Positions 5 through 44,143 of a stretch of 52,143 bases of DNA are shown here, one piece after another. This DNA comes from an uncultured bacterium (GTDB taxonomy: Bacteria > Verrucomicrobiota > Kiritimatiellia > RFP12 > UBA1067): the NCBI GenBank assembly GCA_902779865.1, contig CACZDG010000036.1, positions 1 through 52,143 of the forward strand, given 5' to 3'. Under the pieces are notes generated by a model that was not told where the DNA came from, ran no database searches, and was given only the letters and a program-made list of their open reading frames with translations. The translations under genes and the position numbers were made by a program. Numbering within the stretch: position 1 is the stretch's first letter; each line of letters starts with the position of its first letter.

Positions 5-195
5 GGTAGGGGCCGACCACCGGGCGGCCCGTAGGTGGGGCGGGGGAAACAACAAGCGTACAACAACAAGTTGTGCGGCTCGGCGGGACGCCTCGCCCCT
101 ACCAGGCGGGCCGCTCGGTGATCTGCCCCTACCAGGCGGGCCGCTCGGTGATCGGCCCCTACCAGGCGGGCCGCTCGGTGATCGGCCCCTACCAG
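5..195. repeat. Cluster of GC-rich 'GGTAGGG' repeat units, partly a 30-bp tandem
   Basis: On the minus strand, units that begin GGTAGGGGC follow one another. A 30-bp unit (GGTAGGGGCCGATCACCGAG followed by CGGCCCGCCT) is repeated about three times over 105-195. A related unit, GGTAGGGGCGAGGCGTCCCG then CCGAGCCG, covers about 78-104. A plus-strand unit starts at 5 (GGTAGGGGCC). Each unit contains short inverted repeats. Related units recur at 22928-22954, 29281-29376 and 50818-50876. There is no unique spacer between units, so this is not a CRISPR. It lies directly upstream of the smc promoter. No gene is seen in 1-254. Confidence 0.8.
49..70 (+). repeat. 22-bp dispersed repeat, intergenic copy
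   Basis: Two copies of ACAACAAG-type octamers are separated by CGTACA (consensus ACARCAAG, CGTACA, ACARCAAG). This intergenic copy is flanked on both sides by GGTAGGG-type units. The same 22 bp recurs at 29313-29334, 32630-32651, 32675-32696, 37734-37755 and 37785-37806, all inside genes. Confidence 0.85.
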
Positions 196-26480: not shown

Positions 26481-26969
26481 ATGAACAGCATCAAAATCTT
26501 TTGTGCAGTCGCGCTGGCGCTGACGGGGGCGTGCGCGTTCGGTGAAACATACCGTGACGCGATGGGGCGTGTGCAGTGGACGAAAACCACAGATCGCAAC
26601 GGCAGAACCACTTTCCGTGATTCTATGGGCCGTAACCAGGGCACCGCTACCACGGACAACTATGGCAAAACGACCTACCGCGACGCGATGGGCCGGAACC
26701 AGGGCACTGCCACCACGGATAACTACGGCAAGACCACCTACCGCGACGCGATGGGCCGTAATCAGGGAACTGCCACCACTGACAACTACGGTAAAACGAC
26801 CTACCGCGATTCGATGGGACGCATCACCGGCACCGCCACTAAGGATAACTACGGTAAGATCACCTACCGCGATTCGATGGGGCGCATCACCGGCACCGCC
26901 ACCACTGACAACTACGGCAAGACCACCTACCGCGACGCGATGGGACGCGTGGTCGGCACAAAGAAGTAG
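26481..26969 (+). CDS. Secreted protein made of 21-residue tandem repeats
   Basis: 162 residues starting at ATG 26481 after AAGGAGA. A signal peptide (MNSIKIFCAVALALTGACAFG) is followed by six full repeats of 21 residues and one partial. The consensus is YRDxMGRxxGTATTDNYGKT with a final T. At the DNA level the unit is 63 bp and inner copies are nearly identical, so the array is young or homogenised. The 'DxxGR...DxxGK' spacing recalls YD-type beta repeats, but it is not a full YD/RHS sequence. It has no catalytic motif and is probably an extracellular or periplasmic fibrous or binding protein. A leaderless panB promoter follows directly. Confidence 0.75.
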   Translation: MNSIKIFCAVALALTGACAFGETYRDAMGRVQWTKTTDRNGRTTFRDSMGRNQGTATTDNYGKTTYRDAMGRNQGTATTDNYGKTTYRDAMGRNQGTATTDNYGKTTYRDSMGRITGTATKDNYGKITYRDSMGRITGTATTDNYGKTTYRDAMGRVVGTKK

Positions 26970-26974
26970 ATTGT

Positions 26975-26982
26975 GCTATACT
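26975..26982 (+). promoter_or_regulatory. Extended -10 promoter of panB, near-leaderless
   Basis: TATACT (26977-26982) is preceded by TGC (26974-26976). The panB ATG is 9 nt downstream at 26992 with no Shine-Dalgarno. Confidence 0.6.
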
Positions 26983-26991
26983 ATTGCCGCT

Positions 26992-27777
26992 ATGAAAAAG
27001 TGGACAGTTTCAACTTTCAAGGCGGCAAAGGGCGTTCGCAAGCTCGGATGCTGCACCGCTTATGACGCCTGCTTCGCGCGTTTGGCCGACGAAGCGGGCG
27101 TACCGTGCATCCTCGTTGGCGATTCAATGGGCATGGTGTCGCTCGGTTATTCGACCACGCTTCCCGTGTCGATGCAGGAGACTCTCTCCGCCACCGCAGC
27201 CGTGGCGCGTGCGGCGAAGGACGCGCTCGTGATCGCTGATATGCCCTTCGGCAGCTACCAGTGCGGCGACGACGCGGCGATGGCGAATGCCGTCGCCTGC
27301 CTGAAGGTCGGTGCAGACGGCGTGAAGCTCGAAGGTGGCGCACGCGTGTGCGGCCTCATCCGCCGCATGACCGACGCCGGCATCCCCGTGCTTGCGCACG
27401 TGGGAATGACGCCGCAGAGCGTGAACGCCTACGGCGGTTTCAAGACGCAAGGCAAGACGCGCGAGGCAGCGCTGCAGGTACTTGAGGATGCGAAGGCCGT
27501 GGAGGCCGCCGGCGCGTTCGCTGTCACGCTTGAGTGTGTGCCGGACGAACTCGCCGCCGAGATCACCGCCGCGCTGAAGATCCCCACGATTGGCATCGGC
27601 GCGGGGCCGGTGTGCGACGCGCAGTGGCTCGTGATGCACGACCTCCTCGGCCTCAACGAGGGACACGTGCCGGCATTTGTCAAGCGCTACGCGAACCTCG
27701 CAGCAGACGCGAAGAAGGCCTTCGCGCAGTACGTGGACGAAGTCGCGTCCGGCACTTTCCCCCCGCCGCGCAGGTGA
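26992..27777 (+). CDS. panB: 3-methyl-2-oxobutanoate hydroxymethyltransferase
   Basis: 261 residues. PanB makes ketopantoate from 2-oxoisovalerate and methylene-THF, the first step of pantothenate synthesis. Motifs: TAYDACFARLADEAGV, VGDSMGMVSLGYSTTLPVSM, IADMPFGSYQ, GADGVKLEGG, VLAHVGMTPQSVNAYGGFKT, VTLECVP and PTIGIGAG. The start is the ATG at 26992. A longer frame reaching back through the repeat gene is spurious because it reads the 63-bp repeats out of frame. It is separated from the transporter gene by 1 nt. No other pan gene is in the window. Confidence 0.93.
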   Translation: MKKWTVSTFKAAKGVRKLGCCTAYDACFARLADEAGVPCILVGDSMGMVSLGYSTTLPVSMQETLSATAAVARAAKDALVIADMPFGSYQCGDDAAMANAVACLKVGADGVKLEGGARVCGLIRRMTDAGIPVLAHVGMTPQSVNAYGGFKTQGKTREAALQVLEDAKAVEAAGAFAVTLECVPDELAAEITAALKIPTIGIGAGPVCDAQWLVMHDLLGLNEGHVPAFVKRYANLAADAKKAFAQYVDEVASGTFPPPRR

Positions 27778-27778
27778 C

Positions 27779-30253
27779 ATGCGGCTTTGGGCGTCCATCC
27801 TATTTGGCTCGCTCGCGTCGTTCGGCGCGACGGATGTGACGTTTCTCATGTGCTACCGCCCGGACCACCCGGAAGATCCGGCGACGAAGCAGATCCTTCA
27901 GTTCACTGCGGCACATCCCGAGATCCGTCCGTTCCAGTGGGGCGGGCTCACCCTTCCTGGCGGCGGTGGACGCGCGGCGTTCATGCTCGCACTCGCGGGC
28001 GGCACGGTGCCGGATGTTTACAAAGCCTGGTTCCACATCCTCCGTCATGACATCGATGAGGGGTTCTGCTATCCGCTCAACGAGTGGCTTGGTGAAGATG
28101 CGAATGGCGACGGCAAGCTCTCCGATGCGGAGGCAAGGTGGCCGGGCTGGAAGGATGTGCCGCAGCTCTGGCGCGACGTGGCGACGAAGGATGGCAAGGT
28201 CTATGCCGTTCCCACGCCTGGTTTTGCGTACTATGGCATAGTTTACCGCAAGGACCTCGTGAAGGCGGCTGGGCTTGACCCCGAAAAACCGCCGCGCACA
28301 TGGGATGGGTTCGCCGACTGGTGCCGCAAGCTCACGTTCGCCGATAAGACCATTCCCGGCGCAACCGTGCAACGTGGCCAGCGCGCATTCGCGATCGAGA
28401 ACCGCCCGTGGGGTTTTTTGCCGTGGGTAGGTGCGGCCGGCGGCGACGTGATTAGAATTGGGAACGGGGAACGGGGAACGGGGAATGGGGAACAAACCTG
28501 GGAGGCGTGTTTCGACTCTCCGGAGTGTTTGCGTGCGGCGAAGTTTTTGCAGAGGCTGATCGCAGATGGCGTGGTGCGCGCGCTGCCGCAGCTGTCGATG
28601 TCGAACGAAGTTGCGGACATGTTCGTGAACGGCGAGATCGTGAGCGTGTTCGGCGGCGAGGACCTCGTGGTGTATCTCACCGAGCGTTTGAACTTTCCAT
28701 CGGAGCAAATCGGCCTAATGCCGTTTCCGGCGGCTGATGAGAATTGTCGTCCTGTCCTCCAGGCGCACAAGCATTTCTACGCGATGACGGAGGGCGTGGG
28801 GCGGCGTCCGAAGGAGGAACGCGACGCCGTGTGGGCGTGCGTGGAGCAGCTCGCGTCCGGTGAGGTGTACGACGAGACAGTGCGCAAGAACGTTGCGGAG
28901 GGGCGCGCGCGGTGGTGTCTGCCCGCCGACCTCAAACGCCTCGGCTTTGACGAACACCTTGCGGAGGTGCCGCCCGGTATCCGACAGATGTACGACGACC
29001 TCGCGGCGGGCAGGATACGTGCGGTGACTGAGCCGTACATGGGATTCTGGCAGGCGGCGAGCGACCTCGTGAGCCGCAGGTTCCTTGGCATTCTGCTCAG
29101 CGACGCGGGTAAAAACCTCGACTGCGCCGCCGCCTTGAAGTCGATTTCGGACGACGCGAACCGAGGGCTCATGTTTGACGCGGACAAGGCGCGCATCGAA
29201 GAGGCGCGTCCTGTGGCGCGCGTGGTACTGGGCGTGTTGGTGATTTGCGTGCTGGTGTGCGTGTGGTTCGCCATCAAGGCGGGAGGGCGAACATCTCCGC
29301 GAGCCGGGAAAGACAGCAAGCGTACAACAACAAGCGGGAGCGGACGATGGGGAGGGCGAGCGTCCCCGCGAGTCACACGTCAACGTTTACTTCCGTGGCT
29401 ATTCCTCCTCCCGGCAATCATTTCCATTGCGCTGTGGAGCTACTGGCCGCTCATACGCGGTGCGCTGATGGCGTTTCAGGACTACCGCATCGTGGGCGCT
29501 GGCTCGTGGGTGGGACTGGACAATTTCATCAGGGTGGCGTCCGATCCCGGTTTCTGGAAGGCGTGGGGGCGTACGCTCCAGTACGTGGCAATCACGCTTG
29601 GGCTCGGGTTCGTATCGCCCGTGATCCTTGCGCTCCTGTTGAGCGAGATTCCGCGTGGGAAGGTGTTCTTCCGCACCGTATATTTCCTTCCGCACCTCAC
29701 GAGCGCGCTCGTGGTCACGCTGATGTGGAAGATGATGTTCGACCCCACGGAGAACGGCATGCTCAACCAGATGCTCGCGTGGTTCGGCGCGGGACGTCAT
29801 GCGTGGTTGCAGGATCCGGCGTGGGCGATGACGTGCTGCATTCTGCCTGGCGTGTGGGCGGGAATGGGCACGGCCTCGCTCATCTACATCGCAGCGCTTG
29901 GGTCGCTGCCGCCCGACTACTATGAGGCGGCGGCGATCGACGGCGCGGGCATCTTCGCTCGGTTCCGGCACGTTACTTTGCCACAGCTCCTGCCGCTCAT
30001 GGTAATCAACTTCGTGGGGGCGTTCATTGCGGCGTTTCAGGGAATGGGCTCGATATTCCTCCTCACCTTTGGCGGACCGGGCGACGCCACGAACGTTCTC
30101 TCGCTCGTCATCTGGAAGGAAGCCTACAACAACCTTCGCTTCTCCACGGCGACGACGATGGCGTGGTTCCTCGGCACCGCCCTCATCGCATTTACCTACC
30201 TCCAGATACGTTTCCTCCGCCGCGTAGAGTTCCGCCAGGCTGCCGCGAACTGA
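27779..30253 (+). CDS. Sugar ABC transporter: solute-binding protein fused to permease
   Basis: 824 residues. Residues 1-470 are a family-1 (sugar-type) extracellular binding protein: signal peptide, VTFLMCYRPDHP, GTVPDVYKAW, YAVPTPGFAYYGIVYRKDLV and VSVFGGEDLVVYL. A membrane anchor (about 480-502) follows, then a linker (about 503-535) encoded by dispersed repeats. Residues about 540-815 are a MalF-type permease with the EAA loop YYEAAAIDGAGIFARFRHVT. A heptamer repeat (28460-28493) adds RIGNGERGTGNGEQ inside the binding domain. No ATPase or second permease is nearby, since the next genes are on the other strand. The substrate is unknown. Confidence 0.88.
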   Translation: MRLWASILFGSLASFGATDVTFLMCYRPDHPEDPATKQILQFTAAHPEIRPFQWGGLTLPGGGGRAAFMLALAGGTVPDVYKAWFHILRHDIDEGFCYPLNEWLGEDANGDGKLSDAEARWPGWKDVPQLWRDVATKDGKVYAVPTPGFAYYGIVYRKDLVKAAGLDPEKPPRTWDGFADWCRKLTFADKTIPGATVQRGQRAFAIENRPWGFLPWVGAAGGDVIRIGNGERGTGNGEQTWEACFDSPECLRAAKFLQRLIADGVVRALPQLSMSNEVADMFVNGEIVSVFGGEDLVVYLTERLNFPSEQIGLMPFPAADENCRPVLQAHKHFYAMTEGVGRRPKEERDAVWACVEQLASGEVYDETVRKNVAEGRARWCLPADLKRLGFDEHLAEVPPGIRQMYDDLAAGRIRAVTEPYMGFWQAASDLVSRRFLGILLSDAGKNLDCAAALKSISDDANRGLMFDADKARIEEARPVARVVLGVLVICVLVCVWFAIKAGGRTSPRAGKDSKRTTTSGSGRWGGRASPRVTRQRLLPWLFLLPAIISIALWSYWPLIRGALMAFQDYRIVGAGSWVGLDNFIRVASDPGFWKAWGRTLQYVAITLGLGFVSPVILALLLSEIPRGKVFFRTVYFLPHLTSALVVTLMWKMMFDPTENGMLNQMLAWFGAGRHAWLQDPAWAMTCCILPGVWAGMGTASLIYIAALGSLPPDYYEAAAIDGAGIFARFRHVTLPQLLPLMVINFVGAFIAAFQGMGSIFLLTFGGPGDATNVLSLVIWKEAYNNLRFSTATTMAWFLGTALIAFTYLQIRFLRRVEFRQAAAN
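28460..28493 (+). repeat. GGGAACG heptamer repeat inside the transporter gene
   Basis: Nearly five copies of GGGAACG (one is GGGAATG). It is in frame and encodes a Gly/Asn/Glu stretch inserted into the binding-protein domain. It is similar in kind to short tandem heptamer repeats reported in cyanobacteria. Confidence 0.75.
29281..29376 (+). repeat. Composite dispersed repeat forming the fusion linker
   Basis: A left unit GGAGGGCGAACATCTCCGCG (29282 on) is followed by the 22-bp element (29313-29334) and a right unit GGAGGGCGAGCGTCCCCGCG (29351 on). The arrangement matches the one at 5-104, where the 22-bp element also lies between GC-rich units. It is translated in frame (KRTTT in the 22-bp part). 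Confidence 0.75.
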
Positions 30254-32159: not shown

Positions 32160-32189
32160 TTGCGTGGGGGGCATAGATTTTGGTAAGAT
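32160..32189 (+). promoter_or_regulatory. Promoter of the first C10 peptidase gene
   Basis: TTGCGT (32160-32165), an 18-bp spacer and TAAGAT (32184-32189) preceded by TGG. It is divergent from the minus-strand promoter at 32110-32117. A ribosome site (TTGGAG) precedes the ATG at 32219. Confidence 0.5.
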
Positions 32190-32218
32190 ATTTCCCATCG
32201 GAAAATATTGGAGTCGAG

Positions 32219-35200
32219 ATGAGAAGCAAAACGATTTGCAATGCCATGGCTGCGCTTTGCGCGGCTTTGACGGTTGTTAACGCCGCCTTCGCGGTGGAAG
32301 TCTCGGAAATCGAAGCGGCCGAGGCCGTGAAGGGCTGGACGGCGCTAGGCGAGGCACTGGGGCTGGATTTTTCCGGTGCTGAGACTAACAACGTATTGAC
32401 GTACACTGGCGTAGGCGGAACGGGCACCTACCACGTGGTAAGCCTTAATGGCGGCGGTTTCGTCGTGACCTCCGGCGATACGGCGATGGAGCCGATCCTC
32501 GCCTACTCGAAGGAGGGCGTGTGGAACACCAACGCCGCCGAGAACCCGCTCATGGCGATGCTTGAGATCGACGTGGCGGCAATGATGGCCGAACTGTGTT
32601 CGGCCAATACGAACAACGCGGCCCAGGCGACAGCAAGCGTACAACAGCAAGGAGGTGGCTTGCGGCTGGCGGGGACAGCAAGCGTACAACAGCAAGATGG
32701 CAAGGCCGCCAAGTGGGCACGCCTGCGCGCGGCGGCGAGCGCCAAGGGCGGGTTGCGCCTTCAGGCATCCGCGCCTTCCGCCGACCTGCGCGTCGATTAC
32801 CTCGTGAAGTCGAAATGGGGACAGAACGGCCACGGCGAAAACTACTACACGCCCGGCGGTGCCGTCTGCGGCTGCGTCGCCACGATGGGCTCGCAGGTTA
32901 TGCGCTTCTGGCAATATCCGACCGCCTCAATCACCAAGACCGCGCAATGGTACGGCTCCTGTAACTACAGCGGCACGAAGAAAGGCTGGGACGTCGACGG
33001 CTACGATGCAAGCGCATCCGCCACGACGCGGACTCCTTGGAATCCCGCGTTCGGCGGAACCTACGATTGGGCGAACATGCCGCTCAACGGAGGATCGTCC
33101 ACGACGCAGAAAAAGGCCATCGGCAAACTCACCCGCGACGTCGGCATTACGTGTTTCATGAACTACAACGAGAACAACGGCGGCGCGAGCGGCGCGCCTG
33201 GCGCGGTCTTCGGGCACCGCCTTTGCGACCAGTTCACGTACGCCAACGCGAAGATAACATACGGCTGGAACGACTCCGTTAAAGCGGCGCTGCTAGGCAG
33301 CCTTGACGCGGGGCTTCCCTGCCCGATGACCGTCCCCGCCCATGCCATCGTCGCCGACGGCTACGGGTACGATTCGAGCGGCACGCTCTTCGTCCATTTC
33401 AACTTCGGATGGAGCGGAGGCAGCGACGGATGGTATTCTCCGCCGGACCTCTCTGCCGTGAACAGTAAATTCAGTTCGTTCCAGGCCGTCATCTACAACG
33501 CCTATCCTCCGTCCAAGGGCGACCCGGACCTTACCATCGTGAGCGGCGTCATCGTGAACGGCAGCAGCCGCGTGGGCGGCGCGACGGTCACGGCGGAGTG
33601 TCGCGAGACGGGCAAGTCGTACACCGCAACCTCCGCCTCCTCCACGGGCAAGTACGCGCTCATGCTCCCCGCCGGGCTGTACACCATCACCGCGACGAGC
33701 GGTAGCAGTTCCACGCGGGTGGTCCAGCGCGTGAAGTCCTGCCTGACGTCCATCGCGGCGGGCGCGGGCGGCATTTCGTACGCCGGCAGCGTCGAGAACA
33801 TCTACGGACTCGACCTCGATCTCGCAACCGGCGGCGCGTACTCCGTTACTCGGGAACTCGTCCACCGCTGGAGCTTCAACGGCAACCTCAACGATTCGCA
33901 GGGCGGTGCCACCGCGACGAAGGTCGGCTCCAACGTCACGATTGCCGACGGCAAGGCGAAGCTGACAGGCAGCGGCTACGGCTCGGGTTCGCTCAAGCTC
34001 GGCACCAATCTACTGAACACCGACGCCGCCACGATTGAAATCTGGGCGTCGCAGACAGCAGCCCGCAACTGGGCTCGCGTCTTCGACTACGGCGCGGACA
34101 ATACCCACTACTTCTGCCTCACGTGGTCGTCTGGCACGGACATCGCGAACGACCGCGCCGGCACCAAAAACACGACGGAGGTTGCCGTCGATACATCAAT
34201 GGCGCCGTACAAACTCGGACGGCAGTTCCACATCTCCGCCACGTTCGAGCGCCAGCGCGACGGCACGACGTTCGTCAGGTGGATGCGCCGTGACGCCGCG
34301 ACGGGTGTGCTGCAGAAATCGGGGACGATGACCATCCCGAACGGAATCCAGTCGATTTCCAATCCCGTCCTCTACCTCGGACACTCCTTCTACACTGCAG
34401 ACAGCGACGCCTGCGCGGAATACGACGAGGTGCGCATCTGGAACGGCATCCTGAGCGACGTGCAGCTTTCCGCGAACGCAAACGCCGGCCCGGACGAAAT
34501 CATGCCGCCGCCGGAGATCACCCGCACCATGAAGGCGACATGGAAGGGCGGAACCACCGCGCCGACCGCCGCCGCGCTTGCGAACTCCGCCAACTGGACC
34601 TGCCTTGACCAGAACGGCAGCACCATCTCCGGCGCGCTTCCCGACGCAAACACGACCGTCATCATCCCCGGCGGCAACACCGCGTTCACCATTCCCTCCG
34701 GCTACACGCCCAACTGGCGCAAGGTGCAGTTCGGCAACGACGGCACGACGACGTACTGGGGCAGCAAGGCAGCGGGCAACAGCGGGAACCGGGCGTTCAA
34801 GGATGCGGCGATGGGCGACTACGCCCTTCAGGGCGAGGGCAGCGTGGACAACCTCCACAACGGCATCATCCCCAACCCCGGCATGAACTATCCGAGCGGT
34901 CTTTTGAACAAGCAGTTCCGCTACGACGGCTGGTTCTACGTCTCCCGTGCACAGGCCGGCAACTGGGGCCTGCATGGATTCGTGGACGACTACATGGCGT
35001 TCATGGTCGACGACGAGTGGGCGATCTTCGGCTTGTCTTGCCAGCAGGCATACGCCAACATCGATGTCAAGGAAGGCTGGCACAGGTTCCGCCTCATCGT
35101 GGGCGACACCGGCGGCGGCTACGGCGGACGCATCCTCGAAAGCAACCACCATTTCGTCACGCCCCTCACGATCAAGATCAACGGGGCGGGCGAATACGCG

Positions 35201-37276
35201 TTCTCGCCCGAGCACTTCACGTTCGGAAGCGGCACGCAGACCGTCAAGCTCTCTTCCGACTGCGACTGGCGCGCGCTTGGCGATGTCGCGGTTGACAGCG
35301 GCGCGACGATCGACCTCAACGGACACGAGCTGAAGGTCAACGCCATCGCCGGCGACAGCCTGAACGCCAAGGTGACGAGTTCCACCGCCGGTGCGAAGCT
35401 CTCCGTGTACAACGGCACTGTCAACGCCAATAACCTGACGGTCGAGAACGTCACCGTGGCGACCACCCGCGCCGCGACGCCCACATCGCCCACGGCGACG
35501 ACGTTCTACACAGACTCCTATGCCGTGACGCTTGCGTGTACGACGTCGGGCGCGACGATCTACTACACGACGGACGGCAGCGAGCCCACCAAGTCGAGCA
35601 CGGTCTATTCCGCGCCGATCACGATTACCGCCACCACGACCATCAAGGCGATCGCCATTGCCCCCACCACTCTCGAAAGCGCCGTCTATACCGGCACGTT
35701 CACATTTGTCCCAACAGTGGAGACGCCCACGTTCTCCCCTGCGGCGATGACATTCGCCACGGATACGCTGTCCGTCTCGCTCTCCTGCGCGACGGCGGGC
35801 GCAACGATCCGCTACACGACGAACGGAAGCGAGCCGACGGCGAGCAGCGCGCAGTACACAGGCGCGATCACGCTGAACGCGACGACTACAATCAAGGCCA
35901 AGGCGTTCAAGTCGAACTGCGTCGACAGCGCCACGGCATCCGCGACCTTCACCCAGGCCGCCCGTGCGGCGACGCCGACCGCGACCTCTGATGCCGGCTA
36001 CCGCAACACGCTCGTCGATCTTGCGAGCGATGTTCCAGGCGCGGAAATCCACTACACGACGAACGGCACCGTGCCCACGGCGGAAAGCCCGATCTACACG
36101 CCCGGCACGGTGATCAACGTCACGGGGTCGGGCCCCACAACGGTGAAGGCCGTGGTGATTGCGGACGGGTACCGTCCGAGTGAGGTGTTCACCTACGACT
36201 ACTACGTGAAGCAGTTCTTCGGGCCGACCAGTGGGGCGAACCCCGCCGCGTACGAGGACACGCCGCAGAACCGCGCCGACCACTGGATTCTCGAAAACGA
36301 GAGCTACAAGGAGGCGACCGGCCTCTGGTCCAACGCCGTGGAGTACGTCAACGGCAAGGTGACAATCGACGAGCGGAACGAGTTCACGGCCGACAATCCG
36401 TCCGATGCGCGCAACGTCATCATCGAGACGACGGCGACTTTCAACAGCATGGCGGAGGATCATCAGGACTATGACGGCGTGAAGGCGGCTGTGCGCATCG
36501 GCACGAACGCCTGTTTCCAGGTTTACACGACAAATGAAAACGGAACCGTGTGGCTCGACACGACTGCGGAAGGGATCTCGGCTGAGGTCAATCACGACTA
36601 TACTGTCAAGTTTGAACTGGACGTAACGAACAGAACGTACACCGTAGCGGTGAAGAACGGCACAGACTTCAAGCCGCTCGCATCAGGTGGAAACGCCATT
36701 TTCCCGTTCGCGTTCGCGGGCGATACGCCTTACGTGCGGTCGATCGGCTACGTCGGCGAGGGATCGGTCTCGTCTATCTACGGCAGCTACACGAACAAGG
36801 TTGTCGTGTTCGTGACCGATGAGGTCGTGACCGTTTCCGACGGAACCACTACGCTCACCGCCAGCCAGGCCGAATGGCTGAACAAGCGTGGAGACCATGC
36901 GGCCGTTGCGGCGATGGTCAAGACCCTCACATCCGACCAGTTCGCCAGGGCGTACCTCCTCAACGATAACATCATGAACGCCAGCTACAGCGTAGAGGAC
37001 TGGGGCTCGTTTAAGATCACCGATATAGCGGTTGGAGACGACGACATCACCGTGAAGGTGAAGCTCGTGCGCAACTTCGCGGTGATGGACGGTGCGAAGG
37101 CGGCGCCGATCAACGGAACGCTCAAGGTCTACGGCGGCGCGAACGTGTCGGGAATCAACACCCAGATACAGGATTACGAGCTGAACGACAACGACGTGCA
37201 TTTCCGCGACGGGGAAGAGGCGACATTCATCATCGACAAGGGCGCTATCAAGTTCTACAAGGCCGTGATTGAATAG
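32219..37276 (+). CDS. Secreted C10 (streptopain-like) cysteine peptidase, multidomain
   Basis: 1685 residues. Signal peptide (to about 24), an inhibitory prodomain (30-130), then a Gln-rich insert from two copies of the 22-bp repeat (TASVQQQ at about 137-143 and 152-158). The peptidase domain has CGCVATMGSQVMRFWQYP (nucleophile Cys219), AHAIVADGYG (His375) and a FGWSGG loop. It is followed by a carboxypeptidase-regulatory-like fold (about 440-510), a LamG-like domain (about 547-755), a PA14-like domain (about 835-990), three chitobiase C-terminal-type repeats (about 1088-1328) and a C-terminal module (about 1328-1685) shared with the next gene. It is probably a surface-bound or released protease that digests host or dietary glycoproteins. 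The start at 32219 fits the signal peptide. Confidence 0.85.
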   Translation: MRSKTICNAMAALCAALTVVNAAFAVEVSEIEAAEAVKGWTALGEALGLDFSGAETNNVLTYTGVGGTGTYHVVSLNGGGFVVTSGDTAMEPILAYSKEGVWNTNAAENPLMAMLEIDVAAMMAELCSANTNNAAQATASVQQQGGGLRLAGTASVQQQDGKAAKWARLRAAASAKGGLRLQASAPSADLRVDYLVKSKWGQNGHGENYYTPGGAVCGCVATMGSQVMRFWQYPTASITKTAQWYGSCNYSGTKKGWDVDGYDASASATTRTPWNPAFGGTYDWANMPLNGGSSTTQKKAIGKLTRDVGITCFMNYNENNGGASGAPGAVFGHRLCDQFTYANAKITYGWNDSVKAALLGSLDAGLPCPMTVPAHAIVADGYGYDSSGTLFVHFNFGWSGGSDGWYSPPDLSAVNSKFSSFQAVIYNAYPPSKGDPDLTIVSGVIVNGSSRVGGATVTAECRETGKSYTATSASSTGKYALMLPAGLYTITATSGSSSTRVVQRVKSCLTSIAAGAGGISYAGSVENIYGLDLDLATGGAYSVTRELVHRWSFNGNLNDSQGGATATKVGSNVTIADGKAKLTGSGYGSGSLKLGTNLLNTDAATIEIWASQTAARNWARVFDYGADNTHYFCLTWSSGTDIANDRAGTKNTTEVAVDTSMAPYKLGRQFHISATFERQRDGTTFVRWMRRDAATGVLQKSGTMTIPNGIQSISNPVLYLGHSFYTADSDACAEYDEVRIWNGILSDVQLSANANAGPDEIMPPPEITRTMKATWKGGTTAPTAAALANSANWTCLDQNGSTISGALPDANTTVIIPGGNTAFTIPSGYTPNWRKVQFGNDGTTTYWGSKAAGNSGNRAFKDAAMGDYALQGEGSVDNLHNGIIPNPGMNYPSGLLNKQFRYDGWFYVSRAQAGNWGLHGFVDDYMAFMVDDEWAIFGLSCQQAYANIDVKEGWHRFRLIVGDTGGGYGGRILESNHHFVTPLTIKINGAGEYAFSPEHFTFGSGTQTVKLSSDCDWRALGDVAVDSGATIDLNGHELKVNAIAGDSLNAKVTSSTAGAKLSVYNGTVNANNLTVENVTVATTRAATPTSPTATTFYTDSYAVTLACTTSGATIYYTTDGSEPTKSSTVYSAPITITATTTIKAIAIAPTTLESAVYTGTFTFVPTVETPTFSPAAMTFATDTLSVSLSCATAGATIRYTTNGSEPTASSAQYTGAITLNATTTIKAKAFKSNCVDSATASATFTQAARAATPTATSDAGYRNTLVDLASDVPGAEIHYTTNGTVPTAESPIYTPGTVINVTGSGPTTVKAVVIADGYRPSEVFTYDYYVKQFFGPTSGANPAAYEDTPQNRADHWILENESYKEATGLWSNAVEYVNGKVTIDERNEFTADNPSDARNVIIETTATFNSMAEDHQDYDGVKAAVRIGTNACFQVYTTNENGTVWLDTTAEGISAEVNHDYTVKFELDVTNRTYTVAVKNGTDFKPLASGGNAIFPFAFAGDTPYVRSIGYVGEGSVSSIYGSYTNKVVVFVTDEVVTVSDGTTTLTASQAEWLNKRGDHAAVAAMVKTLTSDQFARAYLLNDNIMNASYSVEDWGSFKITDIAVGDDDITVKVKLVRNFAVMDGAKAAPINGTLKVYGGANVSGINTQIQDYELNDNDVHFRDGEEATFIIDKGAIKFYKAVIE
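32630..32696 (+). repeat. Two copies of the 22-bp dispersed repeat (32630-32651, 32675-32696)
   Basis: The copies start 45 bp apart and are both read as ASVQQQ. They flank a Gly/Leu-rich GGGLRLAG stretch between prodomain and peptidase. The paralogous gene has the same pair at 37734-37806, there 51 bp apart. Confidence 0.85.
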
Positions 37277-37285
37277 GGTGGTTAA

Positions 37286-37330
37286 TCTCACGCAGAGGCG
37301 CAGAGAGACAGAGAACGCAGAGAAAAGAAA
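37286..37330 (+). repeat. CGCARAGA-type dispersed repeat between the two peptidase genes
   Basis: CTCACGCAGAGGCGCAGAGA followed by GACAGAGAACGCAGAGAAAA. It belongs to the family at 22889-22927 and 26355-26411. It sits in the 67-bp gap before the ribosome site of the second peptidase. Confidence 0.75.
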
Positions 37331-37343
37331 ACGGAGAAGGAAA

Positions 37344-40300
37344 ATGAAAAAAACGGTAAAAGCAGCTATCGCCATTTCAATGTCGGCTCTCTGGCTCTCA
37401 TTGGCGATGGGCGAGGAGGTTTCGTCCGATGTCGCCAAAGATGCGGCACGGGGGTGGATCAACCTGCGGGAGGCGCTTGGCGAGGAGATAACTGCCGAGC
37501 CGGAGAGCGTGCTGACGTATGACGCGAAGGACGGCAAGGGCAAATACTATGTCGTCAACCTGAAGGGCGGCGGATTCGTGGTCACTTCGGGCGACACGGA
37601 AATCGAGCCGATTCTCGCCTACTCGAAGGACGGCACATGGAATACGAACGCGACTCAGAATCCCCTGATGGTGATGCTCAACATCGACGTGGCAATGATG
37701 GCCGAACAGTGTTCGGCCAATGCGGCCAATACGACAACAAGCGTACAACAGCAAGGTGGGGGGCTGCGGTTGGCGGGCGCAGGGACAACAAGCGTACAAC
37801 AGCAAGACGGCAAGGCCGCCAAGTGGGCTCGGCTGCGCGGGGCGGCAAGCACCAAGGGCGGGGCGAGGCTTCAGGCAGGTTCACGCTCCTCCATCAACGA
37901 CGTGCGCGTGAACACGCTCATGGAGACGAAATGGGGGCAGAGCGGACACGGCGAGAACCAATATACTCCCCGTGGATATGTCTGCGGCTGTGTCGCCACC
38001 GCCGGTGCGCAGATTATGCGCTACTGGAGATATCCCACCGCGTCCATCACAAAAATAAAGGATTATTATGGTACAGTTGACGGCACTGCCAGCTGGACTC
38101 TCAATGATGGCTACCAGACGACTGCCGGTGGCTCCTACACGGCCTGGAATGATGACGTCAAGACGTTTGGCGGCACGTACGACTGGAACAATATGCCGGG
38201 GACTGTATCATCATGGGGCATGTCCACTGCCCAGAAAAAGGCGATCGGCAAGCTGACGCTTGACGTGGGGCGGAGCGTGTACATGGATTATGCAGATGAT
38301 GGCAGTGGTGCGCACTATAGCGCCTTCTACCTTCGCCTCACAGACCAGTTTGGCTATAAGAATTCCGCATTGAAGATTAATCCTTCTGCCGACGAAATCA
38401 AGAAAGGCATCCTCTGCAGTCTCGATTTGAAGAGCCCGTGTGGCGTTTCCGTTCCTGGCCATGCGATTGTCGCAGACGGCTACGGCTACAACAGTGGAAC
38501 GCTCTATGTCCATTTCAATTTTGGATGGACCGGAACCGACAACGCCTGGTACAATCCGCCCGACCTTACGGACGCGGATTCCGATTTTACCTCGATCGAC
38601 ACGATCATCTACAACATCTATCCGCCGAGCGTCTGCTCCGACTCGGGTCGCACCATCGTGAGCGGTCGCCTTCTGAATAGTTCCGGTTCGATTCTCGCCA
38701 ACACGACGGTGATGGCGCGGAACAGGTCGTCCGGCGCAACCTATACCGCAACGACGGACTCCAAGGGCATTTACGCGCTTCTCGTTCCCGCCGCCAGCTA
38801 CACGATTTCGGCGACTAAGGACAACTGCACGGCTTCCACAAACCTCTCGGTCCAGGCATGTTCATCCACGCGCCTCGCGCGAGATGACGGCTCGTCGTAC
38901 TATTCCGGCGGCACCGTCGCGAACGTCCACGGCGTGGAGCTGACGCTCAACCAGCTGCCCGCGCCCACATTCTCGCGCGCGAACACCGTCACCGACACCA
39001 CGATCTTCGACGGGTACGTGAACCTCACGATCTCAAGTTCGGTCTCCGGAGCCACCATCAGCTATACGCTCGACGGCTCCGATCCGACATCCTCCAGCGC
39101 GGCCTATTCAAGCGCCTTGCAGATTTCCTCCACCTGCACCGTCAAGGCCCGCGCGTTCAAGAGCGGATACCTCGAGAGCGAAGTCGCTGAAATCACTTTC
39201 AACAAGCTCTCGCCAACGGGGGATCTTATTCTCAACGGGGGATTCGAGCAGAACACCGTGACGCAGAACTCCGGAGTGTGGTCCTACTCGAACGGCGACG
39301 GATTCTCCTGCAAGTACTGGACCTTCGCGTCCAACGCGGGCCTTGCCGCGCCGAACTGCACATGGGTGGCGAACCATTCCGAGTTTGGGGGCAAGGCGGC
39401 CTTTATCCAGACGAACGGCGCGGGAGCGGAATCCTTCGTGGCGCAGGAGTTCGTCATCGCGAACGCCGCGACCTACGATTTCAAGTTCACGTATGCGGCG
39501 CGCCCGGGATATGTCGGCGTGACGACGCGCGCCCTGCTCATTCGCGGCAGCGTGACGAACGAAATCGCGTCTGTTTCGCCGACGGCCACGTCGCCGTCCG
39601 AATACTCGGGCCAGGTCACCGTCAACGCGGCTGCAACGCACATCCTGCGCTTCGTGCAGACCGGCGTCTCGGGCGACAAGGCGAACATCATCGACAACGT
39701 GACGTTCCAGATGGCGAAGCTGCCCGAGCCCACGTTCTCGCCCGCCGCCATGACGTTTGTCGCCGACAGCCTCGACGTCACGCTCGCGTGCGCGACTGCG
39801 GGCGCGACGATTCGCTATACGCTTGACGGCAGCGAGCCGACGTCTTCCAGCGCGGCGTACTCCGCCCCGATCACGATCACCGGTACGACCACGATCAAGG
39901 CGAAGGCGTTCAAATCGGGCTATGTCGCAAGCGACACGGTGTCCGCGACATACACTATTGCGGAGCAGGCGGCGGTGCCGACGTCCACCTCCACGCCGGG
40001 CTATCGCACGACGTTCGTGGACCTCGCCAGCACGGTTCCCGGCGCAGTCATCCATTACACGGTTGACGGCAGCGACCCGACGGAGCAGAGCGAAGTGTAC
40101 ACCGCCGGCACGGCGATCAACGTGACGAACGCGACTGGCGCAACGACGATCAAGGCGCGCGTGTACGCCGAGGGGTACCGTCCGAGCGAGGTGTTCACCT
40201 ACGACTACTACGTGAAGCAGTTCTTCGGACCGACCAACGGCGTGAACGCGGCTGCCTGGGAGGACACGCCGCAGAACCGCGCCGCTTACTGGATCTTCGA

Positions 40301-41276
40301 GAACGAGGACTACAAGGAGGCGACGGGCCTCTGGTCCAATGCCGTCGAGTACGTCAATCATAAGGTGGCGATTGAAGAGGGGAACGAGTTTGTCGCTGAC
40401 AGTCCTTCCGATGCGCGCAACGTCATCATCGAGACGACGGCTTCGTTCAACAGCGCGGCGGAGGAGGATCAGGAATTCGAGGGCGTGAAGGCGGCTGTGC
40501 GCATCGGCACGAACGCCTGTTTCCAGGTCTACACGACCAATCTGAATGGAAGGGTCTGGCTCGATGCAGAGGGTGTCACGGCGACCGTCGGAAACGACTA
40601 CACCGTCCGGGTCGAAATGGACATGACGAACAGGATGTATTCCGTTTCGGTGAAGCAGGGCGGAAACTACCTGCCGCTGACGGCAGGCGGGAATCCCAAT
40701 TTCCCGTTCGCGTACAACGAAGTCACTCCATGCGTACAGAAAATTGGCTACATCGGCGAGGGATCGGTCTCGTCCATCTACGGTAGCTATACGAACAAGG
40801 TGGTTGTGTTCGTGACCGATGAGGTCGTGACCGTTTCCGACGGCACCGCGACGCTCACTGCAAGCCAGGCGGACTGGCTGAACGCGCGCGGTGACCATGC
40901 GGCCGTTGCGGCGGTTATCAGAACCTTGACGTCTGACCAGTTCGCCAGGGCGTATCTGCTCAACGAGAACATCATGAACGCCAGTTACAGCGTAGATGGT
41001 TGGGGCTCGTTCGAGATCACCGACATTGACGTTGGCGCTTCTGCAGTCACCGTGAAGGTGAAGCTCGTGCGCAACTTCGCTGTGATGGACGGCGCGAAGG
41101 CGGCGCCGATCAACGGAACGCTCAAGGTTTACGGCGGCGCGAACGTGACGGGGATCAACACCCAGATACAGAATTACGAGCTGAACGACAACGACGTTCA
41201 TTTCCGCGACGGGGAAGAGGCGACGTTCATCATCGACAAGGGCGCAATCAAGTTCTACAAGGCAGTGATTGAATAA
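37344..41276 (+). CDS. Secreted C10 cysteine peptidase, paralogue of the preceding gene
   Basis: 1310 residues from ATG 37344, after GGAGAAGG; an earlier ATG at 37269 would translate the dispersed repeat and lacks a signal peptide. Signal peptide (MKKTVKAAIAISMSALWLSL to AMG), prodomain, the twin TSVQQQ insert, then the peptidase with CGCVATAGAQIMRYWRYP (Cys216) and GHAIVADGYG (His373). After it come a carboxypeptidase-regulatory-like fold, a chitobiase-type repeat (about 539-620), a carbohydrate-binding-like domain (about 625-789, LILNGGFEQN...IDNVTF), two more chitobiase-type repeats (to about 949) and the shared C-terminal module. It lacks the LamG and PA14-like domains of its neighbour, so domains have been swapped between a common start and end. 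Confidence 0.85.
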   Translation: MKKTVKAAIAISMSALWLSLAMGEEVSSDVAKDAARGWINLREALGEEITAEPESVLTYDAKDGKGKYYVVNLKGGGFVVTSGDTEIEPILAYSKDGTWNTNATQNPLMVMLNIDVAMMAEQCSANAANTTTSVQQQGGGLRLAGAGTTSVQQQDGKAAKWARLRGAASTKGGARLQAGSRSSINDVRVNTLMETKWGQSGHGENQYTPRGYVCGCVATAGAQIMRYWRYPTASITKIKDYYGTVDGTASWTLNDGYQTTAGGSYTAWNDDVKTFGGTYDWNNMPGTVSSWGMSTAQKKAIGKLTLDVGRSVYMDYADDGSGAHYSAFYLRLTDQFGYKNSALKINPSADEIKKGILCSLDLKSPCGVSVPGHAIVADGYGYNSGTLYVHFNFGWTGTDNAWYNPPDLTDADSDFTSIDTIIYNIYPPSVCSDSGRTIVSGRLLNSSGSILANTTVMARNRSSGATYTATTDSKGIYALLVPAASYTISATKDNCTASTNLSVQACSSTRLARDDGSSYYSGGTVANVHGVELTLNQLPAPTFSRANTVTDTTIFDGYVNLTISSSVSGATISYTLDGSDPTSSSAAYSSALQISSTCTVKARAFKSGYLESEVAEITFNKLSPTGDLILNGGFEQNTVTQNSGVWSYSNGDGFSCKYWTFASNAGLAAPNCTWVANHSEFGGKAAFIQTNGAGAESFVAQEFVIANAATYDFKFTYAARPGYVGVTTRALLIRGSVTNEIASVSPTATSPSEYSGQVTVNAAATHILRFVQTGVSGDKANIIDNVTFQMAKLPEPTFSPAAMTFVADSLDVTLACATAGATIRYTLDGSEPTSSSAAYSAPITITGTTTIKAKAFKSGYVASDTVSATYTIAEQAAVPTSTSTPGYRTTFVDLASTVPGAVIHYTVDGSDPTEQSEVYTAGTAINVTNATGATTIKARVYAEGYRPSEVFTYDYYVKQFFGPTNGVNAAAWEDTPQNRAAYWIFENEDYKEATGLWSNAVEYVNHKVAIEEGNEFVADSPSDARNVIIETTASFNSAAEEDQEFEGVKAAVRIGTNACFQVYTTNLNGRVWLDAEGVTATVGNDYTVRVEMDMTNRMYSVSVKQGGNYLPLTAGGNPNFPFAYNEVTPCVQKIGYIGEGSVSSIYGSYTNKVVVFVTDEVVTVSDGTATLTASQADWLNARGDHAAVAAVIRTLTSDQFARAYLLNENIMNASYSVDGWGSFEITDIDVGASAVTVKVKLVRNFAVMDGAKAAPINGTLKVYGGANVTGINTQIQNYELNDNDVHFRDGEEATFIIDKGAIKFYKAVIE
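37734..37806 (+). repeat. Two copies of the 22-bp dispersed repeat (37734-37755, 37785-37806)
   Basis: Both copies are read as TSVQQQ, as in the paralogue. The spacer differs in length by 6 bp (two codons) from that of the paralogue. Confidence 0.85.
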
Positions 41277-42154: not shown

Positions 42155-44143
42155 ATGAAGAATATCGCGAAGTCTTGTTGCTGTGCGCTTGCTGCCATGG
42201 CGGCTCTGTGCGGCGTTGCGGTAGCGACGCCAGTTGATGGCATGATGCCGGTTGAGACGGGGTTCGGCTGGAAGGACGGCTGGGTCGCCGAATGGAAAAG
42301 CGATGTGCCGGGCCTTGATGTGCGCGACACGTCCGCAAGGGTGCGCGACGGCCTCGTGAAGGTCATTCGCCGATGGACGTGGAACGGCAAGGAGCCGCTT
42401 GAGAAGGTGACGTTGTCCGTCAGGTATCGCGTCAAGGGCGATCCGAAGCAGCTCAAGCCGTTCATGCCGGGAATCCTGATGTACGGGAACCCGTCCAACA
42501 AGGGGCGCACCGACGGACGCGTTCCCGTGTTCGCGGGCGAGAAGGGCGAGTTCGCGATCTTCGAGGAGCACCGGCTGCCGATGCCGTTCGCGCTGCTGGA
42601 GAATGCAAACGGCGGCGAGTTCGCTGCGATACATACGCTGCCGTCGCCCATACGCGGCGCGGTGCGCGAAGACCTCTGGTGGAGCGTTGGCGTGGAGGTG
42701 GCGGACGGCGGCACGGACATCGTGATGCTCTCCGGCCCGATCGGCTACAACCGCCGCCGCTCCGTCGCGAAGGCGAGGCAGGGCATGGCGATGAAGTATG
42801 ACGAGACATACGTCACGCTCCGTCCGGGGCAGGTCGTAGAGAAGACCTTCTGGATCCAGACGGGCAAGGCGACGCATGACTCCTTTGGCTTTGAACAGGC
42901 GATGGACGTGTCGCTCGACCTCTTCAAGCCGTACCGCACGGACTGCTACGAGCCGTTCGAGCGCATCTTCCGCGTGAAGCGCGACTATGCGATGACGCGC
43001 TGGATGGACGAACGAGGTGCGTCCGGCTTCAACATGTACGACTGCGGAAACGGCATGACCGACGTTTACGAGCGCACTCACAGGCGGCGCGAGATCGTCC
43101 TTGGCTGGTGCGGCTGCGCGGCGACGTGCGGCTACGCGCTGCCGGTTCTGGACATCGACAAGGGCGACTGGGCGAAGGCGCAGAAGTCGCTCGACTTCAT
43201 CAGCGACACGTTCGGCGCGACGGTACGTTCGTCCGACGGGCTCTTCTGCGTACGTTACAACATGGGCACCGGCAAGACGTCTGAAGGCGATCCCGTTTCG
43301 TGTGGACAGGCCCTCAACTGCGTCGTCAAGGCGATTCGTTTCGCGGAGAAATCCGGCGGCCGGCTCAATCCCGCGAAGTGGCGCACGTTCGCCGAGAAGG
43401 CGCTTGACGCGATTGCGGCGTCCATTTTGAAGCCGGACTGGCAGGAGCCGAAATCGACTAATGCCGGATTCCTCGTTGCGCCGCTCGTCGCGGGATCGGA
43501 GATCTTCGGGAAGAAGGAACAGCTTGCCGCGGCGAAGAAGCTGGCCGCAGTGTTCGAGCGGCGGTACTTCGGCTACGAGGGGGTCTATTGGGGTGGCACG
43601 CTCGACGCGAAGTGCGAGGACAAGGAGGGCGCGTACGCGGCGTTCCAGGGTTACGCTGCGCTTCTGCGGAACGCAGTCGCAGTGAAGGACGCGGCGGCGG
43701 AGCGTAGATACGCCCGCCTCGCACAGCACGCGATGAACATGATGCTCACATACACGATGGTGTGGGACGCGACGTATCCGCCCGGTCGCCTCAGCGACCA
43801 TGCGTTCAAATCGACGGGGTGGACGGTCGTCTCCGCGCAGAACCAGCACCTCGACGCGTTCGGCGTGCTCACGACGCCGGAGATCTGGCGGATGGGAGAA
43901 TACCTCAAGGACGACAGGCTCATGAAACTTGCCGCCGTGATGTACCGTTCGTGCTTCCAGTTGACCGACGCCTCCGGCTCGCTCGGCGAGCAGATACAGC
44001 ACACGAACTTCGGCCAGCGCGGCGACATGAGCGACGTGTACAGGCTGCGCGGTGGGTACGCCGAGCGCTGGACCGTATTCTGGCTCACGGCGCACTTCCT
44101 CAATGCGGCGGCGGAATTCAAGGAGATGGGCGTTTGCCCCTGA
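42155..44143 (+). CDS. Secreted (alpha/alpha) toroid glycan enzyme-like protein, unrecognised family
   Basis: 662 residues with a signal peptide (to about residue 24, AVA/TPV). Residues 30-250 look like a beta-sandwich domain; residues about 270-655 are helical with repeating Gly-rich turns (CGCAATCGYALPVLDID, DPVSCGQALNCVVKAIRF, GVYWGGTLDAKCED, GWTVVSAQNQHLDAFG). The layout recalls glycoside hydrolases and polysaccharide lyases with an (alpha/alpha)6 barrel, such as GH88/GH105/GH127-like proteins, but no family signature is certain. It is 13 nt after the aldo/keto reductase and last in the peptidase run, in keeping with extracellular glycan breakdown. Confidence 0.65.
   Translation: MKNIAKSCCCALAAMAALCGVAVATPVDGMMPVETGFGWKDGWVAEWKSDVPGLDVRDTSARVRDGLVKVIRRWTWNGKEPLEKVTLSVRYRVKGDPKQLKPFMPGILMYGNPSNKGRTDGRVPVFAGEKGEFAIFEEHRLPMPFALLENANGGEFAAIHTLPSPIRGAVREDLWWSVGVEVADGGTDIVMLSGPIGYNRRRSVAKARQGMAMKYDETYVTLRPGQVVEKTFWIQTGKATHDSFGFEQAMDVSLDLFKPYRTDCYEPFERIFRVKRDYAMTRWMDERGASGFNMYDCGNGMTDVYERTHRRREIVLGWCGCAATCGYALPVLDIDKGDWAKAQKSLDFISDTFGATVRSSDGLFCVRYNMGTGKTSEGDPVSCGQALNCVVKAIRFAEKSGGRLNPAKWRTFAEKALDAIAASILKPDWQEPKSTNAGFLVAPLVAGSEIFGKKEQLAAAKKLAAVFERRYFGYEGVYWGGTLDAKCEDKEGAYAAFQGYAALLRNAVAVKDAAAERRYARLAQHAMNMMLTYTMVWDATYPPGRLSDHAFKSTGWTVVSAQNQHLDAFGVLTTPEIWRMGEYLKDDRLMKLAAVMYRSCFQLTDASGSLGEQIQHTNFGQRGDMSDVYRLRGGYAERWTVFWLTAHFLNAAAEFKEMGVCP

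Follow-up and report, generated by a model that had tools for sequence, protein, structure and literature searches.

A hairpinless 22-nucleotide repeat of rumen bacteria, probably scattered by its own single-strand-DNA transposase

The closest described systems are those in which repetitive extragenic palindromic (REP) sequences are paired with REP-associated tyrosine transposases (RAYTs). The excerpts of the literature compared here already document REP/RAYT systems, REPs inserted in frame in the transposase gene, and REPs located within other genes (PMC6006769, PMC3733652, PMC3116915). In RAYT subclass 2.4, the repeats are inserted in frame in the transposase gene, and in subclasses 2.6 and 3, the nearest published step to the case considered here, the repeats are atypical, lacking GTAG and showing weaker secondary structure, according to the same excerpts (PMC6006769). 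Here we analyze a 22-mer (ACARCAAGCGTACDACARCAAG) that recurs in a 52,143-nucleotide stretch of DNA (hereafter, the window; contig CACZDG010000036.1, assembly GCA_902779865.1) from an uncultured Kiritimatiellia bacterium, together with a gene located outside the window in the same genome that appears to encode a HUH transposase.

The data are best read as a system of the REP/RAYT type in which the repeat lacks both a hairpin and a GTAG foot. With a probability of roughly 0.7, the 22-mer plays the part of the REP, as end or recognition sequence, for a novel kind of REP-associated HUH tyrosine transposase that occurs in gut bacteria resembling Kiritimatiellae. As in the REP or REPIN plus RAYT systems (TnpA-REP, "REPtron"), to the extent that the excerpts describe them, a short high-copy repeat exists in lineage-specific versions (PMC6006769, PMC3116915, PMC3733652); as in a REPtron, a gene of the HUH Y1 type is flanked by its own repeats, including inverted pairs; and as in REP/RAYT, repeats lie in frame in the transposase gene and in other genes. 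Unlike the REPs of these excerpts, the 22-mer is non-palindromic, has no GTAG or GGAG foot, consists of two direct octamers 6 nt apart, and has many intragenic copies; in addition, the protein has at its C terminus a domain, with a weak resemblance to DprA, that the table of RAYT subclasses (PMC6006769) does not list. The pair would work like REP/RAYT, yet it fails the defining REP tests (hairpin, GTAG), and mobilization by the enzyme is the main step that we infer. Neither a hairpinless repeat nor a DprA-like tail figures in the parts of the REP/RAYT literature compared.

Other described elements share some of these features. Intragenic REPs and Rickettsia palindromic elements, as covered in the excerpt of PMC3733652, likewise place repeat DNA in frame in unrelated proteins; unlike these palindromic elements, the present repeat is 22 nt long and hairpinless and is read in three sense frames and, in antisense, as signal-peptide-like cores. 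In PARCEL, too, spreading repeat DNA codes for protein segments, but the 22-mer is not the dyad-symmetric, tandem 25-residue protein motif of PARCEL as outlined in the portion of the source consulted (PMC2996958). With IS200/IS605 elements (ISDra2 TnpA), the system shares a HUH/Tyr catalytic domain, judging by a profile match to structure 2xm3; unlike these elements, with their subterminal hairpins and multiple near-identical gene copies, it combines an unfolded 22-mer, an extra C-terminal domain, and one close gene copy in the genome. The small dispersed repeats (SDRs) of cyanobacteria, reportedly described by Elhai in 2008, are said to be 21-27 nt long and nested in other repeats, and several of them reportedly share secondary structure; to our knowledge, no transposase is known for them. 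The present repeat fits this definition in its length, its copy number of 171, and its presence/absence pattern, but not in secondary structure, which the 22-mer lacks. Literature searches turned up no description of the 22-mer family among the matches listed, in line with the preliminary description of this DNA, which had not recognized the family; a search with the inner letters of the repeat returned other subjects alone, and one combining Kiritimatiellae, transposase, and palindrome returned none.

The 22-mer is dispersed throughout the window's own genome (4,298,331 bases in 272 contigs; denoted G000, with G, L, and C numbers standing for genomes, loci, and contigs). With at most two mismatches, 171 matches were found (100 forward and 71 reverse), compared to 0 + 0 for a reversed-pattern control across the same genome, so the repeat does not occur at chance frequency; all own-genome places among the matches listed are exact 22-mers. 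A closer look covered the window and 70 own-genome stretches (30 + 40 loci), each copy being counted once by its context; because these stretches were picked by exact places, the sample favors exact copies. Here, the unique copies comprise 97 exact ones, 25 with a single mismatch, nearly always at position 14, and a further 3, 2, and 4 with two, three, and four mismatches, respectively; their edges are sharp and few of them are decayed. A purine directly precedes the repeat in 99% of 320 copies. Identical arms are found in none of 44 close inverted neighbors (5.2 expected on shuffling, P ~0.003), perhaps because perfect palindromes are unstable, and in 32 of 55 direct neighbors. An interpretation of the position-14 asymmetry as a code for outer and inner arms was set aside, being weak once all copies were counted.

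Among 145 genomes searched, close homologs of the transposase gene (~59-98% identical over the aligned pieces) were identified in nine (G000, G001, G014, G017, G053, G056, G059, G062, and G078). All nine have 22-mers both upstream of and within the gene, eight have an inverted copy precisely 29 nt 5' of the first aligned codon (ATG in seven, CTC in L385), and in six, 22-mers also lie at the 3' end or close to it. In the own-genome locus (L074), eight 22-mers precede the gene, three lie at its end, and three are inside; the copy just 5' of the start is inverted, and the internal copies are in frame between the two domains of the protein. More distant members of the family were detected in 104 of 144 genomes (E ≤ 1e-5), and 0 of the 21 distant loci examined have 22-mers nearby. 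At the genome level, the 22-mer is present in 9/9 genomes with a close homolog vs 36/136 others (Fisher P 1.5e-5, with shared ancestry ignored). The gene and the repeat are also present or absent as a unit: at the site of the G000 unit, G010 and G012 retain both neighbor genes and lack the gene and the 22-mer. In addition, G056 carries the gene together with its repeats where G082 retains a single 22-mer. In two low-copy genomes, the gene locus accounts for 6/9 (G001) and 4/8 (G053) of all copies. RAYTs proper were considered as the mobilizer and rejected: PF01797 genes are present in all 17 genomes of the genus, including G008 and G015, which have no 22-mer, and the 22-mer occurs at 0/7 PF01797 loci within the stretches examined.

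An alignment of 15 family members shows three invariant features, MPDHxH, Y128, and the C-terminal motif SxGE; Y128 is the presumptive catalytic tyrosine. The family profile matched the structure of transposase 2xm3 (E 6e-4), which we take to be ISDra2 TnpA, and, more weakly, TnpA-REP 4er8 (E 0.72). Matches to the NCBIfam model REP_Tyr_transpos (NF047646) had E values of 6e-4 and 1e-4 (19.7 and 22.2 bits), below the curated cutoff of 80; Pfam gave no match for the close members, and among ten distant members PF01797 was below the cutoff in seven and absent in three. From its HuH motif and Tyr, the protein is predicted to be a HUH single-strand-DNA transposase of the TnpA-Y1/RAYT type that falls outside the curated family cutoffs. 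The C-terminal domain is possibly DprA-like. Five of the 21 distant loci (L394, L395, L396, L399, and L405) have other short repeats at least three times nearby, those of L396 being palindromic, which might be cognate repeats of their own. A further Y1_Tnp-like open frame in the own genome (G000:C85, L192) is full of in-frame GCGTAGCGACGGCG / CGCCGTCGCTACGC hairpin units and, as judged by eye, continues into a GH127-looking protein.

Several observations weigh against mobilization of the repeat by this enzyme. No consistent target-site duplication was found at the sites compared or in the flanks of the 320 copies, and a few host bases are replaced at several filled sites. On either strand, the 22-mer folds no better than shuffled sequences (z -0.43 and 0.02), unlike known REPs; of the likeness to Rickettsia palindromic elements drawn in the preliminary description, the in-frame insertion in proteins stands and the palindrome does not. 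The similarity of the C-terminal half to DprA (3uqz) is weak (E 0.41 to 0.55). Three close homologs (L379, L380, and L383) have no 3'-end copies and L380 has no -29 copy, and G001 encodes a second, 43% identical match on C362, outside the loci examined. No 15-mer or longer sequence is repeated three times at 16 of the 21 distant loci; therefore, cognate repeats are not a general feature of the HUH family. No close homolog was found in the incomplete assemblies of the copy-rich G010 (89 copies) and G012 (109 copies), nor in G100 and G040, which carry dialect copies, and in G017 the gene holds just 2 of 14 copies.

The genomes without a detected gene and the small share in G017 would also be accommodated by an independent, very small mobile repeat, similar to the SDRs mentioned above, that is moved by unknown machinery and for which the HUH gene is just another insertion host, on a par with the many other genes and the prophage-like contigs in which copies reside. 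We regard this explanation as unlikely, given that it fits poorly with the contrast between the close homologs and the distant loci, the fixed -29 position of the inverted copy, and the concentration of about half or more of the copies at the gene in G001 and G053.

Comparison of host genes among relatives shows that the repeat is present at some sites and absent from the corresponding sites elsewhere, with in-frame length differences. In a NuoF-like loop, for which nine of 12 candidate loci could be aligned, the 22-mer occurs alongside a hairpin in one relative; in five the loop is occupied by other sequence, in most cases a GGTAGGGCG-type hairpin, and in the remaining three it is short. In the linker of a fused transporter (7 of 19 loci aligned), one relative has the 22-mer, and in the rest the linker is occupied by hairpins or by simple repeats, GGACAAAGGAC for example. 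Because the same loop in related genes contains the 22-mer, contains a GTAG-type hairpin, or is short, it is DNA that spreads, rather than a protein motif, as had been proposed. The fused transporter frame exists in relatives whose linker, which varies widely, carries other repeats, and therefore the 22-mer did not create the fusion. The linkers of L234, L241, L227, and L228, all without the 22-mer, contain simple repeats (CACTCTTCACTCTC..., GGACAAAGGAC...), which makes this linker a general hot spot for repeat DNA.

Other sites show the same exchange. In L087, which is GH106-like as judged from its resemblance to L072, a site is filled by the 22-mer that in L130 is occupied by a GTAG hairpin; at site 8, G000 has four copies and G014 has two, and hairpins are found there in G010 and G012; and at site 4 the length difference equals a 48-bp repeat-plus-hairpin unit. 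A survey of 25 pairs of sites and relatives, from which three self-matches and two matches to a dispersed composite were left out, retained 20 pairs, some of them paralogs: 14 are filled at equal length, two have the 22-mer at another length, and four, all at the NuoF site, lack it, so that unbiased filled sites outnumber empty ones in this sample. Across the 14 equal-length sites, the 19 fixed positions of the repeat differ in 4/266 cells vs ~8.3% of the flanking bases.

Some of these changes could have arisen without transposition, through recombination, slippage, and template switching that shuffle an old repeat, with new positions reached by gene conversion and segment exchange. The growth and shrinkage of arrays, as at site 8, point in this direction, as do the signal-peptide copies described below, which have more than the 22-mer in common, and a 1.3-kb segment, encoding a protein with MPDHFH, that is bounded by direct 22-mers in G056 (L057) and is replaced by a single 22-mer in G082 (L059). 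Such processes explain local change but not dispersal: many lone copies are found in genes that are unrelated to one another and differ in flanking sequence, and the same loop is filled or without the repeat in relatives. As a full account, this explanation appears improbable.

At least one copy of the 22-mer was found in 44 of 144 relatives. The copy-rich genomes all belong to the same genus (G010, G012, and G014, the last with 134 copies), followed by G100 (49) and G040 (22), and the remaining relatives have 0 to 14. A scan for the exact 22-mer among 84,980 species genomes yielded at least 87 stretches; those among the matches listed come from metagenome-assembled genomes labeled Kiritimatiellae, Lentisphaerae, Verrucomicrobia, or "uncultured bacterium," several of which, again among the matches listed, are named from rumen, omasum, or rectum. 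Dialects particular to other genera are found in G100 (ACARCAAGCGGACAACARCAAG, with ...CGGACA...; 31 copies examined), G040 (ACAACAAGCGTACGACAACAAG, with ...TACG...; 14 copies examined), and G096 (ACTGCAAGCGTACAACTGCAAG, with both octamers altered alike to ACTGCAAG; four copies examined), as if a version of its own had been multiplied in each lineage.

The 22-mer is also present in five viral-contig stretches, and on viral and prophage-like contigs it lies within genes, in two frames as judged by eye. Prophage-like contigs hold many of the copies in some low-copy genomes (8/14 on C94 in G017), and the orientation is uniform on each of L369, L371, L372, and L374. These four loci are prophage-like in encoding a Mu F-like head protein, a phrog_310 transposase, a terminase, and a primase. 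A prophage origin of the 22-mer was considered and not adopted, phage being retained as a possible vehicle. The near-exact copies, dialects, and inverted pairs would likewise suit a DNA-uptake-like recognition sequence kept exact by biased uptake, but ~40 copies per Mb, arrays, length-changing insertion, and linkage to a transposase do not match the usual character of uptake sequences, and this possibility is very remote.

The reading of the 22-mer as protein was assessed in 304 nonredundant copies flanked on both sides by 200 nt or more, from the own genome and relatives, using a codon-usage score trained on the window genes. By this score, 119 copies are internal to coding sequence, 113 in sense (66, 34, and 13 by frame) and six in antisense; a comparable tally for the own genome alone gave 35 sense and three antisense among 125 copies. 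No frame of the six contains a stop codon, and the sense readings, TASVQQQ, QQAYNSK, and SKRTTT, are hydrophilic. Spacing is a multiple of three for 49 of the 55 direct neighbors no more than 100 nt apart. A Pfam scan of 19 host proteins found 13 that resemble glycoside hydrolases (GH) or their kin (GH127, GH106, GH2, GH31, GH123, NAGLU, and others), the other six being NuoF-like, Band 7, TPR, the fused transporter, and two C10 peptidases. The claim that unrelated proteins read the repeat in different frames thus extends to three sense frames and antisense.

Antisense copies located right after start codons read CCCTLAV or LLLYACC (for example, MKIAKTCCCTLAVALCVAAASSAQA and MSKRICTLLLYACCLSLPAEE), which are hydrophobic. 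Among 29 candidates at N termini, 17 of them in antisense and 12 in sense, signal peptides were judged by eye from charge, hydrophobic core, and AxA end; some antisense copies look like signal-peptide cores, and several of the candidates clearly do not qualify. In the same place, L328, a related gene lacking the repeat, encodes what looks like an ordinary signal peptide. Members of the CCCTLAV group have ~60 nt around the start in common, so this group may have spread as a larger piece.

Orthologs do not all keep the same residues at the repeat, given the variation among relatives described above, but C10-like genes of another genus, L040 (G049, on the same contig as L137) and L041 (G038), contain the exact 22-mer in the same frame within diverged flanks; these copies are either old and homogenized or repeatedly inserted. 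Selection on a conserved protein motif TASVQQQ, which these two genes would suit, is the least probable explanation of all, contradicted as it is by the counts of three sense frames and antisense in unrelated proteins, by intergenic copies, and by DNA identity at synonymous positions.

Under the REP/RAYT-like reading, the enzyme would recognize the tandem octamers in single-stranded DNA, cleave, and place copies of this short sequence elsewhere in the genome. Within genes, insertions would persist where they are in frame and in tolerant places, namely, loops and linkers for the three sense readings and signal-peptide cores for the antisense readings LLLYACC and CCCTLAV, and this tolerance would cause the orientation bias. 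The odds seem even for the more far-reaching proposition of a new HUH mobile class, in which the transposase carries a fused DprA-like domain, has a hairpin-free 22-nt double octamer as its substrate, and disperses this sequence, which would rank among the smallest mobile DNAs known, with the host reading loops in three frames and signal-peptide cores in antisense, and with phages as potential carriers between species. Known REP/RAYT systems are mostly hairpin based, and a hairpinless cognate repeat, if true, alters the view of what HUH Y1 enzymes require; should the extra domain prove DprA-like, it would point to a route via single-strand DNA binding or loading. The natural series of in-frame insertions, with filled, empty, and substituted sites among closely related genomes, offers a direct view of the gain of loops and signal peptides from mobile DNA, and gene annotation in such uncultured bacteria should allow for repeat-coded segments.

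Within the window, the octamer ACARCAAG occurs 15 times (2.15 expected; maximum of 6 in 100 shuffles), and 12 of these octamers pair up into six exact 22-mers (Table 1). The layouts recorded in the preliminary description were borne out: the transporter 22-mer is enclosed by two GC-rich units (29281-29372, read directly), the copy at 49 sits amid GC-rich GGTAGGGGC / GCCCCTACC units at 5-31 and 95-195, and the frame differs between the transporter and both C10 peptidases. The view of a single composite repeat was upheld only in part. One of three GTAG/GGAG-like tags (GGTAGGGCG, GGTGGGGCG, or GGAGGGCG) is found no more than 40 nt away from 46 of the 320 copies vs 1.8% of random positions, a proximity above random; but because the tags are near only these 46 copies, and two GGTAGGGCG units do fold (z -3.86 and -2.59) whereas the 22-mer does not, two separate families had been joined under one name, and the GGAGGGCG units are a family distinct from the 22-mer. 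An unpaired GTAG / CGTC end motif is absent from the 22-mer and does not form the majority sequence in the flanks of the 320 copies; GTAG immediately follows the repeat in 11 of them.

Table 1. Repeat copies and host genes in the window, and the transposase gene elsewhere in the same genome
Feature	Position	Strand	Remarks
GGTAGGGGC GC-rich unit	5..31	+	Inverted vs units of 95-195
22-mer	49..70	+	Nested within intergenic GC-rich composite
30-bp GC-rich tandem units	95..195	+	3.4 copies, flanking composite
Solute-binding protein + ABC permease fusion (host gene)	27677..30253	+	Pfam SBP_bac_1 + BPD_transp_1
GGGAGGGCG-type GC-rich unit GGGAGGGCGAACATCTCCGCGAG	29281..29303	+	Left of transporter 22-mer; other repeat family
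22-mer ACAGCAAGCGTACAACAACAAG, fused-transporter linker	29313..29334	+	Frame reads DSKRTTTS
GGGAGGGCG-type GC-rich unit GGGAGGGCGAGCGTCCCCGCGAG	29350..29372	+	Right of transporter 22-mer; other repeat family
First C10 peptidase (host gene)	32180..37276	+	Pfam Peptidase_C10
22-mer, first C10 peptidase	32630..32651	+	Frame reads TASVQQQ
22-mer, first C10 peptidase	32675..32696	+	Frame reads TASVQQQ
Second C10 peptidase (host gene)	37269..41276	+	Pfam Peptidase_C10
22-mer, second C10 peptidase	37734..37755	+	Frame reads TTSVQQQ
22-mer, second C10 peptidase	37785..37806	+	Frame reads TTSVQQQ
Own-genome homolog of HUH gene, outside window	C71:16886-18223 = L074:3387-4724		One close copy in G000

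A look-alike of the 22-mer with three mismatches at 42174-42195 on the minus strand of the window is perhaps a decayed copy or a chance occurrence. The window also contains a tandem array of about five copies of 63 bp in an open frame (26547-26987), unrelated to the 22-mer, and the heptamer GGGAACG is repeated 4.9 times within the fused transporter frame (28460-28493).

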